A stretch of DNA of 64,000 nucleotides from Synechococcus sp. WH 8109 (GTDB lineage Bacteria > Cyanobacteriota > Cyanobacteriia > PCC-6307 > Cyanobiaceae): the NCBI RefSeq assembly GCF_000161795.2, contig NZ_CP006882.1, positions 930,001 through 994,000 of the forward strand. Direction: 5' to 3'. This document shows, piece after piece, positions 24,926 to 59,948 of this stretch. Under the pieces are notes generated by a model. The model was not told the origin of the DNA, did not search any database, and saw only the letters and a list, made by a program, of their open reading frames with translations. Made by a program: the position numbers and the translations under genes. Each line of letters starts with the position of its first letter. Position 1 is the first letter of the stretch.

Positions 24926-25270
24926 TCAGCGCAGGACGCCCCGCAGGATTCCTTCAATAAGACCAGCCGGATTCATGCCCCGGGAGAAGTTTGTTGATGC
25001 GTTGCAGTAGGTCGGGCCGGAGATCAGACCTGCAGCCACCTGCCCCATCAGGCCGGCAAGAGGGGCAATGTCCTCTGAACGCCGAGCCGGCGTGGTGAAG
25101 GCCCTGACGCGGCCATAGAAATCCCTGGCCTCCTGGCATTGGGCTGCCACTTCGGCATCGACCTGAGCCAGCGCTGCTGATGGAACAAGCAGGCCAAAAG
25201 CCACCAGGTAAATGAGCTGTTTTATCGATCTACCGAGCTGGATCGATAAAACAGCCAGGGGGACTTCCAC
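24926..25270 (-). CDS. Small secreted protein of unknown function
   Basis: A 114-residue protein I do not recognise. It has a signal-peptide-like segment (IYLVAFGLLVPSAALAQ, about residues 20-36) and a mature part with two cysteines (QCQEARDF and TYCNAS), which could form a disulfide. The region between is compact and helical. The 5' end of the frame contains a perfect 15-bp inverted repeat (25216-25255). The start at 25270 (MEVPLAVL) places that repeat inside the coding sequence; if translation starts later, the repeat would be in the leader. Confidence 0.65.
   Translation of the reverse strand: MEVPLAVLSIQLGRSIKQLIYLVAFGLLVPSAALAQVDAEVAAQCQEARDFYGRVRAFTTPARRSEDIAPLAGLMGQVAAGLISGPTYCNASTNFSRGMNPAGLIEGILRGVLR
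25216..25255. repeat. Perfect 15-bp inverted repeat
   Basis: The arms GCTGTTTTATCGATC (25216-25230) and GATCGATAAAACAGC (25241-25255) are exact reverse complements around a 10-base spacer. The element lies at the beginning of the small secreted-protein gene read on the minus strand. It has no T-run on either side, so it is not a simple terminator. It could be an operator for a dimeric regulator or an mRNA hairpin hiding the translation start. Confidence 0.85.
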
Positions 25271-54425: not shown

Positions 54426-55260
54426 ACTGCTTCGAAAAGCGATGGAGGTCACGGTTGCAGCGACCGCATCCGGAGCTCTGGTGCCGCTCGATACCTCATT
54501 GACCCACCTGATCGGGGAAAGAGGCTGTCGCTTTGAGTTGCGCCATCTCCTCAGCGCCACACCAAAACACCTTCGAGCATCGGGTCCAAAGCCGAATCCG
54601 TTTCTCCCCTGGGACCAACGTCTGGAGGTTGATCGGATCGGTGAATCCCACGTCGTGATCCTGAATAAATATCCCGTTCAGACCTCCCACATGTTGCTCA
54701 TCACCCAGGACTGGCAACCCCAGACCGGTTGGTTGTCCATGGAGGATTGGCGCTCCCTAGCCTGGATTGATGCCACGACGACGGGTTTGTGGTTCTTCAA
54801 CAGCGGGCCTGATGCCGGAGCAAGCCAGCCGCATCGACATCTGCAGTTGTTACCGCGGTCAGAAGGGGAGCGGATCTGTGCTCGGGACGATTGGTTCCGT
54901 TGCTGTGCGGCTGGCAGAACCACGCCTGCTCAGGACCTTCTGTTGCGCAGTGCACGGGTCGCAGCGATCAGTTCAACCCTGACAGGTGAAATGCTTCAAG
55001 CGCTGTATCTAGCTCTGGCAGAAGACCTCGATCTGGGGCACCCCAGCACCGATGATTGTCCTCGTGGGGCTTACAACCTGCTGCTCACAAGGCAGTGGAT
55101 GGCCATGGTTCGGCGCAGAAGGGAGGGAATTCGTGGTTTCAGCGTCAACGCCCTCGGCTTCGCCGGATCCTTGTTGAGCACCGAGGCCTCCGATCGACAG
55201 TGGATTCAGCGTTCAGGACCAGAGGCCCTGCTTCAAGCTGTTGTTGACACGCAGAGCTGA
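54415..55260 (+). CDS. Ap4A phosphorylase (ATP adenylyltransferase)
   Basis: A 281-residue enzyme of the GalT/HIT-like Apa1/Apa2 group, which degrades diadenosine tetraphosphate by phosphorolysis. The histidine triad variant is ASQPHRHLQLLPR, preceded by HVVILNKYPVQTSHMLLITQ, and PKPNPFLPWDQRLEV near residue 60 is typical. The start ATG is inside the end of the SpoIID-like gene. A 9-bp hairpin follows at 55284-55311. Confidence 0.9.
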   Translation: MTSELLRKAMEVTVAATASGALVPLDTSLTHLIGERGCRFELRHLLSATPKHLRASGPKPNPFLPWDQRLEVDRIGESHVVILNKYPVQTSHMLLITQDWQPQTGWLSMEDWRSLAWIDATTTGLWFFNSGPDAGASQPHRHLQLLPRSEGERICARDDWFRCCAAGRTTPAQDLLLRSARVAAISSTLTGEMLQALYLALAEDLDLGHPSTDDCPRGAYNLLLTRQWMAMVRRRREGIRGFSVNALGFAGSLLSTEASDRQWIQRSGPEALLQAVVDTQS

Positions 55261-55283
55261 AAAGTTCAGTGATGGCACGGATG

Positions 55284-55311
55284 CCTTGGCATGCTTCTCT
55301 CTGCCAAGGCT
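55284..55311. repeat. 9-bp hairpin after the Ap4A phosphorylase gene
   Basis: GCCTTGGCA and TGCCAAGGC are perfect complements around a 10-base loop. There is no T-run on either side, so a Rho-independent terminator is not proven; it may still stabilise the 3' end of the upstream transcript. Confidence 0.6.
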
Positions 55312-55338
55312 GGAGATGGAACTTACAACCACACTTAG

Positions 55339-55966
55339 GCCAAAACCTGCCTCAAAAATCGGAACCGTCAAATTCAGGACAACTTGCATCTGGTTCGACC
55401 CATTGCCCGTCATTACGCCCAACAGACAGGCCTAGGAAGCGACGATCTCCTGCAAGTGGGATGTCTTGGCCTGATCAAGGCTTACAACCGCTACGAAGTC
55501 CAGCGGGGGGCTCCCTTTAAAAGTTTAGCCAAGCGGCACATTCGGGGAGCCATTCTTCACTTCGTTCGCGACAGAGTCGGATTGATACGACTCCCAAGGG
55601 CCTTTGAAGAACGGGCAATGCAGATGGTTCACAGTTCGGAGTGCTCTTCTCTGAGTCCAGCCGATGACCCGGTGGTTGACCACTACCGCAGCAAGCAGCA
55701 CTGGGTGGAATTCAAGGACGACCTTCTCGACGACACACCGCAAGGGATTGATCTGGTCGCTCAGAGGCCTGTAGCAGGGTGAACAAGCTGTTATGCAACC
55801 CTGAGAATGACGACCATGTGCCCTGCACATGGTCGTCATTGATGGGATGAGTCTGAGGCAGATAGCGGAACTGCTAGGGGTTTCAGCGATGACAGTTCAG
55901 AGGCGCGTGAAACTCGGCCTCAACACCATCGCGGACGAGCTGAAAGCTACTCAGCCCGACGCTTGA
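55339..55966 (+). pseudogene. Broken group 3/4 sigma-70 factor gene
   Basis: The first frame encodes a sigma region 2: NLHLVRPIARHYAQQTG, then SDDLLQVGCLGLIKAYNRYE and AKRHIRGAILHFVRDRV, with RLPRAFEERAM leading into region 3. It stops at TGA 55780-55782. A region 4 helix-turn-helix (DGMSLRQIAELLGVSAMTVQ, then RRVKLGLNTIADEL) continues in another frame up to TGA at 55964-55966. The two frames are separated by a perfect 16-bp inverted repeat. At the 5' end an in-frame TAG (55336-55338) occurs before any ATG; only a TTG at 55384, already inside region 2, could start it. The missing start and the split frame indicate a decayed SigF/SigG-like alternative sigma factor. Confidence 0.72.
55806..55840. 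repeat. Perfect 16-bp inverted repeat in the sigma pseudogene
   Basis: The arms AATGACGACCATGTGC (55806-55821) and GCACATGGTCGTCATT (55825-55840) are exact reverse complements around a three-base loop CCT. The right arm encodes the conserved LHMVVID of region 4; the left arm replaces what should be coding sequence just before it and introduces TGA. It looks like a templated inversion event. Confidence 0.9.
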
Positions 55967-56175
55967 ACGTCGCGATCCATCTGTTCCTGGAGAGTTTTGA
56001 TCGCGGCATTGAGTGCCGACAGCTGCCTTTCAGCACCATCACGCCAGAACCGCAGCATCGACAGCTTTCGTTCCTGATGCTGGCGACGCAAGCTCGTGTG
56101 ATCGGTGCTGGGGCTGCAGCAGAACGGAGGAAGCATGTCAGCGTCGACGCTGGAAACATGCTGACCGATTTTCAA
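55951..56175 (-). CDS. Small hypothetical helical protein
   Basis: A frame of 74 residues whose second half is a clear amphipathic helix rich in Arg, Gln and Leu (SLRRQHQERKLSMLRFWRDG, then AERQLSALNAAIKTLQEQMD). The first half (MKIGQHVSSVDADMLPPFCC) looks less constrained, so the true start may be further in. I do not recognise a family. Its 3' end overlaps the end of the sigma pseudogene by 16 bases. Confidence 0.5.
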   Translation of the reverse strand: MKIGQHVSSVDADMLPPFCCSPSTDHTSLRRQHQERKLSMLRFWRDGAERQLSALNAAIKTLQEQMDRDVQASG

Positions 56176-56290
56176 GCTTGGTGTGACTCGCCAATTACTT
56201 GGCTGTCTCAGAAGCTGGAACTACGGTGTGGATTGAGAGCATCTACTTCGTGGTGTCGACGTCGTTCCGCACACCACAACATCAAGCCGC

Positions 56291-57832
56291 ATGAGTCTCA
56301 GGCGAATCCCGATTTTGGTCTTGTCCTGCGTCTCGCTTGCGGGTTTTGAGTTCGTTCCTCATCGCAGCGCTGAGGCATATGTCGCCCTGATGGCAGGTCA
56401 AAAGGCACGACCTCTCAACGGCACCTTCAACAACGTTCCGGTTCTTCATTCCAATCAACCGGAGATCGTCACCGGGCCAGGAATCCTGGTGGACACGGCT
56501 GCGGGCTCGGCCATCGCTGCAGAGTCGAACCAGCCGCTTCGCAACGCTGCCCACACCTTCAACGGTGAGTTCGGCGTTCATATGCATCACAAGTACTACC
56601 CCAAAGACCAAGCCAGGCTGGGGGGCCGTCGATCCAGGGGCTTGATGACCTTGGCTCTGATCGCGACGAATCCCGGATCAAGTCCGATCACACTGAAGTT
56701 CGATCGAGGCTCCGTCAAAAACAGCTTTGAAGCGCCTTATCACCCGAATCGTTTGATGGGGGTCAAGCCCCTCGGAAAGCGTCCTTGGAACACAGGACCA
56801 GGCGATGCCACCGCCGTTCAACTGCTGCGCGGTGAACTAGATCGGAAATTACCCGAACAGGTCGTGATCCCGGCAGGAGGGCAGAGGGTTGTGGTGCGAA
56901 CTGTGCTCCCTGCCCGTGGCATTGCCAACGGGCTGCTGAAAGGATGCAGCAACGGTCCTTTCACGCTGGCTGTCGTTGCAGCCGAGCAATCAGCACAGGA
57001 TGCCGATCTTTTCGCGGTGCTGCAGTCGGGGCGACTGGCACCGGGGAGGATTTATCTGAACCGGATTCGCGAGATCCAGCTGGGTCGTGTTTTCTCCAGG
57101 GTGGCTGGCGTTGCCCTGGGCGATGCCTACAAGGCTGAGATCAGCCATGACCTCAACCAGGGGCCACTGCACGTGCCCCTCACCAGCACGAAGCGACATC
57201 ACTTCGGTACCAGTGATGTTCAGGTCAATCCGTTGACCACACGGATGATTGATTCCGCTCTGAACAACGTCGGCACCTATGGGGTTCGCTACGACGTGAC
57301 CCTCAATATTTCTGGTGTAGGGCCCCATCAACTGGTGCTTAGTCACCCGGTTGTGTCTGGCAAGAAGACGTTCACAGCCTTCCGTGGATCGCTGCAGATT
57401 CTTCAGGATCGAACCCTTCAAGAGGTTCACGTGGGCATGCGCTCGGGGGAGAGCCTGGCCCTGGCTGATCTCAACCTGGTGCCTGGCACACGCAAGGCGG
57501 TGAAGGTGAGCTTGGTTTATCCGGCCGATGCCACCCCAGGCCATCTCCTCAGTGTTGTGCCCGTTCAGCAGCTGGCCATGCTTTATCGGCGCAAGCAACA
57601 ACAGCGAGACGCCCAGGTCAAAATCGCGGACACCAAATCCCGCATGGTGGGGCCCAAGACAGCTCCTCCTCCGCCTGAATCCAAGCCAGTTGTTGTGAAC
57701 CCTGCACCTGTGAAGCCAGCATCTGTAAGGCCGGTTCCTTTGATGCCGGCTGTGGTGCCTATCGCCCGTCCCAGTTACGGCGATGTGATTCGATCTCAGC
57801 AGCAGTGGTTGCTCCAGCTTCAGGGTCGATAA
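56291..57832 (+). CDS. DUF3370 secreted protein
   Basis: A 513-residue exported protein with a signal peptide (MSLRRIPILVLSCVSLAGF). The DUF3370 core runs from GQKARPLNGTFNNVPVLHSN to about residue 430 and is beta-rich (GEFGVHMHHKYYP; MTLALIATNPGSSPITLKF). The last 70 residues form a Pro/Val/Lys-rich linker (KPVVVNPAPVKPASVRPVPL) and a short end helix. The function is unknown, probably in the periplasm or outer layer. It is followed 24 bases later by the J-domain gene. Confidence 0.85.
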   Translation: MSLRRIPILVLSCVSLAGFEFVPHRSAEAYVALMAGQKARPLNGTFNNVPVLHSNQPEIVTGPGILVDTAAGSAIAAESNQPLRNAAHTFNGEFGVHMHHKYYPKDQARLGGRRSRGLMTLALIATNPGSSPITLKFDRGSVKNSFEAPYHPNRLMGVKPLGKRPWNTGPGDATAVQLLRGELDRKLPEQVVIPAGGQRVVVRTVLPARGIANGLLKGCSNGPFTLAVVAAEQSAQDADLFAVLQSGRLAPGRIYLNRIREIQLGRVFSRVAGVALGDAYKAEISHDLNQGPLHVPLTSTKRHHFGTSDVQVNPLTTRMIDSALNNVGTYGVRYDVTLNISGVGPHQLVLSHPVVSGKKTFTAFRGSLQILQDRTLQEVHVGMRSGESLALADLNLVPGTRKAVKVSLVYPADATPGHLLSVVPVQQLAMLYRRKQQQRDAQVKIADTKSRMVGPKTAPPPPESKPVVVNPAPVKPASVRPVPLMPAVVPIARPSYGDVIRSQQQWLLQLQGR

Positions 57833-59459: not shown

Positions 59460-59948
59460 ATCCGATCATCCGTTCGCAATCTGATCAACAGAATCTCAGG
59501 TCTTGTCTGCGATACATAACAAGACACAGAAAGAGTCTTACCTGAAACGAGCGCTAATCGTCAAGATTCAAAAAATTGGTGGTTTTTGCTTGCTGTGCAG
59601 GTGACGTTGCATTGCGGCGCCCTTTCTTGTTCAAAAGCTTTTTTCTGTTGTTTTTGTCTGCAGTCCACGGCCAGTCCAGGGGTTGCCTACGACCGATGAA
59701 ACCCACTGGATTGTAGGGTTTTCAGGCCTGCGTACCTGCTGTAGACACAGGTACGCAGGCCGATCAGCGGTTTTCGAGCCCTTGCTGGCCTAAGGAAAGC
59801 TCAATCTCTGGCTGATCAGCTGGGAATTTGAACGAGACTCGTTTCTTGTCTCGCATGGGCCTGCAGAGACTGTAGAACTGCCTCTTGCGTCTTACTTGAG
59901 ACACGTGCCAGGTCTGACAATAAGTCTCATCCGAGATAAGTGGACAAT
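59460..59948. other. Non-coding region with inverted repeats
   Basis: No convincing gene is seen on either strand in this stretch. It is poorer in GC than its surroundings and contains poly-T tracts (around 59637-59668), a perfect 14-bp stem at 59725-59761, a short palindrome ACGAGACTCGT near 59832, and several GAGAC/GTCTC words between 59830 and 59940. It could hold a small RNA or the remains of other genes. The apcD terminator lies at its right end. Confidence 0.6.
59725..59761. repeat. Perfect 14-bp inverted repeat
   Basis: GGCCTGCGTACCTG (59725-59738) and CAGGTACGCAGGCC (59748-59761) are exact reverse complements around a nine-base loop. On neither strand is the stem followed by a T-run, so it is not a standard terminator. 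It sits in the non-coding stretch downstream of apcD. Confidence 0.88.

Follow-up and report, generated by a model that had tools for sequence, protein, structure and literature searches.

A perfect inverted repeat of two 16-nt arms lies within the remnant of a sigma factor gene in the window, by which we mean the whole 64-kb stretch of DNA that was analysed. How did so regular a hairpin come to stand in former coding sequence, and was the event that made it the one that killed the gene? The repeat itself is just as the first-pass annotation had reported it, with arms that are 100% complementary and separated by a 3-nt spacer; its position and those of the surrounding features are collected in Table 1.

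Table 1. Features of the SigF-like pseudogene and its hairpin, in window positions.
Feature	Position	Strand	Remark
SigF-like sigma factor pseudogene	55269..55966	+	position of the start codon uncertain; left boundary approximate
Stop codon TAG close to the gene start, read in the old frame	55336..55338	+	
4-bp deletion junction, where the frame first breaks within the conserved part	55757..55758	+	from the alignment; placement ambiguous by a few bases
TGA after the 4-bp deletion	55780..55782	+	reached through the shifted frame
Left arm of the perfect inverted repeat	55806..55821	+	old codons (K/N)DDQCA minus one base
T in the left arm, completes a pair	55808..55808	+	L003 has C and the 8 outgroup rows used have A; ancestral state ambiguous
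Window-specific 1-bp deletion junction	55815..55816	+	extra base in 11 of 11 other loci: A in 10, G in L013
Loop CCT	55822..55824	+	same three bases in L003 (closest relative), L005 and L009
Right arm	55825..55840	+	sigma region 4 begins here, with LHMVVI in the window and LQMVVI or LQMVAI in its closest relatives
Right-arm C, window-specific, closing a stem pair	55828..55828	+	all 11 other aligned loci have G

Perfect hairpins of this length are rare, beyond what chance yields in random sequence. In 400 kb of the own genome (G000; contig 1, 800001–1200000) this one ranked longest among 17 perfect hairpins with arms of at least 11 and a loop of 3–20, and three order-3 Markov simulations of 400 kb each gave no perfect arm longer than 13. 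It was still the longest when the search was widened to 800 kb of the same genome, followed by one of 15 and one of 14. In 800 kb of the closest relative, G033, perfect hairpins of 17 (two) and 16 (one) stood at other places, besides a single one each of 15 and 14, so the window hairpin is not unique in kind. The predicted RNA fold of the 91 nt around it reaches −39.3 kcal/mol (z −5.3), and as single-stranded DNA the window sequence folds at −18.8 kcal/mol, compared with −6.1 for L009, −7.9 for L003 and −11.3 for L005 among its relatives. A search of the own genome for a second copy matched only the hairpin itself and its self-pairing, and the 13-base core of the arm occurred in the 64-kb window only as the two arms; a repeated palindromic element was ruled out on these grounds. 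One pattern scan of viral contigs returned 0 matches, and the idea of a phage or viral copy was dropped.

The host gene is named only SigF-like, because the score with the best NCBIfam profile (SigF, NF005644) was 135.4 bits, under the curated subfamily cut-off of 261. The ORF ahead of the hairpin (55384–55782) matches sigma-70 region 2 (Pfam PF04542, in the part of the window copy that precedes the TGA), and the orthologue L005 has both regions 2 and 4 (Pfam PF04542, PF08281 and PF04545). SigF-type group 3 sigma factors of cyanobacteria are described in PMC2758279: the regions of L005 and the SigF profile as best match are in keeping with that family, whereas the score below cut-off and the broken state of the window copy are not. 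Read in the old frame, the right arm does encode LHMVVID, which had been put forward as a conserved segment, but its H is specific to the window, the other aligned loci having Q in 10 of 11 cases and K in L008.

A DNA search found matches to the locus in 13 of the 34 genus genomes in the collection, which has one genome per species, the own genome included; these genomes we take to be marine Synechococcus-type cyanobacteria. The alignment comprised 12 loci, namely the window and 11 others (L009 being truncated at a contig end), and omitted L002 (the self match of the hairpin), L014 (a 93-base match) and L015 (a 41-base match). Frameshifts or early stops break the gene in 7 of the 12 aligned loci (window, L004, L006, L007, L008, L011 and L013); L003 stops four codons early, and the gene is open over the compared codons in L005, L010, L012 and the partial L009. 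The lesions in this SigF-like gene (window 55269–55966, orthologues L003–L013) differ among species of the genus, and such differing lesions in 7 of 12 loci suggest that the gene was lost repeatedly. Substitutions on the window side fall on the three codon positions in the ratio 12:12:16, those on the L003 side 4:7:13, the spread expected of a pseudogene in the former case and of a constrained gene in the latter.

In the window copy, the 4-bp deletion sits 58 bp ahead of the 1-bp deletion in the left arm, and relative to L005 the two combined do not restore the frame. The inverted repeat is accordingly not "exactly at the frame break", as had been stated: the 4-bp deletion already breaks the frame, and the arm only adds a further 1-bp deletion. 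The TAG near the gene start also appears as a stop inside the protein match. Because the start codon is uncertain, its effect is conditional; it would inactivate the gene provided that translation started no later than this codon. With these two other likely inactivating lesions, the 4-bp deletion and the TAG, present in the same gene, the claim that the lesion at the repeat killed the gene finds no support. A striking hairpin in a pseudogene, this case warns, need not be the cause of the gene's death.

The orthologues place the origin of the arms further back. The 16 stem pairs are complete in the window alone, with 13 formed in L003, 12 in L005 and L009, 10 in L011, 9 in L004, L006 and L008, 8 in L007, 7 in L012 and 6 in L010 and L013; the longest perfect arm within the aligned stretch is 16 in the window and 6–8 in the 11 other loci. 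Relatives with both arms in an open frame thus do exist (L003, L005 and L009), and the arms there are imperfect, at 12–13 of 16 pairs and with a bulged A. The alignment thus shows both arms to be old coding sequence that was already quasi-palindromic, a by-product of the DDQCALQMVV codons. The left arm had been described as standing in place of the expected coding sequence, yet relative to L003 its only differences are the loss of an A and a changed base at 55808. A further prediction of the first-pass annotation, that alignment with orthologues would find only the left arm altered, failed at 55828 in the right arm, and a left-arm-only template switch was rejected since the right arm has changed as well.

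An outgroup vote assigned the loss of the A and the change to C at 55828 to the window lineage and left the polarity of 55808 ambiguous. The base lost at the 55815/55816 junction is a bulged base of the older imperfect stem. All three window-side states add pairs; the arms and loop contain no further window-side change, and none lowers pairing. One of the three pairs missing in L003, at 55836, is that locus's own change, and for this reason the ancestor shared with L003 probably had, judging by the outgroup vote, 14 of the 16 pairs, or 15 with T already present at 55808, and a single bulged base. On the polarity given by the outgroups, an imperfect hairpin became perfect on the window lineage through the loss of one base and one or two substitutions, with both arms affected.

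We consider the perfect hairpin, lying as it does in a sigma-factor pseudogene undergoing decay, to be probably the scar of a quasi-palindrome correction, whether by template switch or by repair of the hairpin. An imperfect inverted repeat preceded the change, and the repeat became more perfect and never less, the polarity of 55808 being ambiguous. The changes are not confined to one arm, as a single switch would leave them; because 55828 changed too, the event is classed as quasi-palindrome correction in the wide sense. The kind of event first proposed for this site is therefore retained as the best reading, with pairing raised to 16/16, but a single copying of the left arm from the right is insufficient, and a correction in two steps or by mosaic repair explains the site best. 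In such a course, the nascent end of the bottom strand would copy the right arm, the loop and the inner stem, then fold back and use the right-arm copy it had just made as template, out to the outer end of the stem. One fold-back event of this sort would yield both left-arm changes, the loss of the bulged A and the change of 55808 to T; the right-arm change at 55828 would come from a second event, or from mismatch repair of the same hairpin templated by the other arm.

Several points temper the proposed correction. The spread of changes over two arms counts against one simple copy explaining all of them, the ambiguity at 55808 means that the evidence for templating may rest on two changes, and the site was picked for being perfect. 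The long perfect hairpins at other places in G033 and the small numbers of the genome scan described below weigh on the same side. The correction may also have happened during or after the decay of the gene, and need not have been the inactivating event. A single extruded hairpin repaired both ways, with the left-arm bulge cut and the right-arm mismatch mended by heteroduplex repair and not by nascent-strand switching, is a version that we hold to be rather doubtful; if true, it would be one event changing both arms in a natural picocyanobacterial lineage.

The mechanism of quasipalindrome-associated template-switch mutation is described for E. coli at a thyA hotspot and with lacZ QP reporters (PMC7202029). 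As in those mutations, an imperfect inverted repeat with a short loop was here perfected and a base lost with a frameshift; the present case is unlike them in that both arms changed, and in a natural lineage instead of an assay. For the evolution of RNA genes, template switches have been proposed whose footprints are hairpin stems newly created or mended (PMC8794818), and the changes seen here likewise restore stem pairing, whereas in a protein gene that is already dead the pairing need not have been selected for. The hairpin is most likely a neat but ordinary mutation scar of a known kind. Its value is that it clearly records, in nature, a type of mutation known in detail from laboratory reporters, and it suggests how a palindrome that arose by chance among codons can become perfect after selection on the protein ends.

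Could independent neutral mutations in the pseudogene have done the same, slippage in the AA run together with a transversion and the change at 55808 having perfected a near-palindrome by chance? The gene evolves fast, with 47 window-side substitutions in the compared stretch, AA is a minimal slip site, and 55808 was possibly T beforehand, which would leave two changes. Against this, arms of at least 15 (loop 3–5, ancestral C at 55808) were reached in only 3 of 2,000,000 runs of an independent-mutation simulation, and the per-site probability of chance perfection by formula was 1.9e-7 to 2.5e-5 over the ancestral 55808 bases and rates tried. Comparable quasi-palindromes, defined by at least 13 pairs, one mismatch, one bulge and a loop of 3–10, numbered 18 per 400 kb in the own genome and 19 in G033, so that about 5e-4 or fewer chance perfections would be expected per 400 kb, figures that are rough in that the site was chosen as perfect and the mutation rates came from this gene alone and were applied to all sites. 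The window-side changes in the arms and loop, none of which lowers pairing, also speak against accumulation by chance. Chance perfection is disfavoured on this evidence, and we regard it as unlikely, though still deserving of some weight.

An artefact of sequencing or assembly comes to mind at any strong hairpin, since such structures disturb sequencing. The genome is, however, a single contig and 99.99% complete, the gene is broken independently of the hairpin site, and an artefact would have to create the right-arm substitution besides the deletion; we find this improbable. That the hairpin is a functional element, a terminator or regulatory structure kept by selection, seems more improbable again. 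Its fold is very stable, and a convergent ORF on the opposite strand (55951–56175), recognisable in the loci of the relatives, ends about 110 bp off, but no terminator-like site was found on either strand in 55200–56300, the perfect stem is absent from the 11 other loci, and the own genome yielded no second copy. An intrinsic terminator in particular was rejected, as the stem has no T run after it.

Events of this type were also sought more widely in 591 kb of G000 aligned to G033 (6.2% mismatches), by scanning for clusters of differences that reverse-complement sequence within 40 bases. For segments of at least 10 the scan gave 7 reverse-complement sites, of which 3 were in G000 and 4 in G033; the controls gave 3 sites when reversed only and 2 when complemented only. 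At a length of at least 11, G000 had 3 sites and G033 had 2, the latter being both arms of a single hairpin, against 1 complement-only and 0 reversed-only controls. Each genome retained one site at 12 or more, that in G000 being the window hairpin, with 0 controls; the counts throughout are small. A lineage-specific mutator in G000 had been considered on a first scan (3 versus 0 at a length of at least 11) and was dropped since the larger scan gave 3 versus 2.

Other hairpins were noticed along the way. In G033, a perfect hairpin of 17 bp lies at C1:678211–678248; one of its arms has 8 positions that differ from the G000 match, and no reverse-complement cluster in the 591-kb alignment is longer. 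The window itself contains a perfect 14-bp hairpin with a 9-base loop at 59725–59761, whose part covered by the alignment is one base off G033, and a perfect 15-bp hairpin with a 10-base loop at 25216–25255, within the first codons of a minus-strand ORF (24926–25270). The latter (genome position 955244), also a G000 site of the scan, was tried as a template-switch event and dropped, its stem being paired in L134 and L139 too; pairing there with different bases suggests what may be a conserved structure.

Outside the window, at another G000 site of the scan, L018:14134–14170 (genome 814134–814170), three clustered left-arm substitutions differ from the six relatives compared. With these substitutions the left arm matches exactly the reverse complement of the right arm, which lies 13 bases off and is unchanged in 5 of the 6 relatives and has one base different in L129. 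The site lies within an open ORF of 258 codons, presumably a HupE/UreJ-type membrane protein. By this comparison it is the footprint of a template switch on one arm, in a gene whose frame is open, the very pattern that had been predicted for the hairpin studied here.
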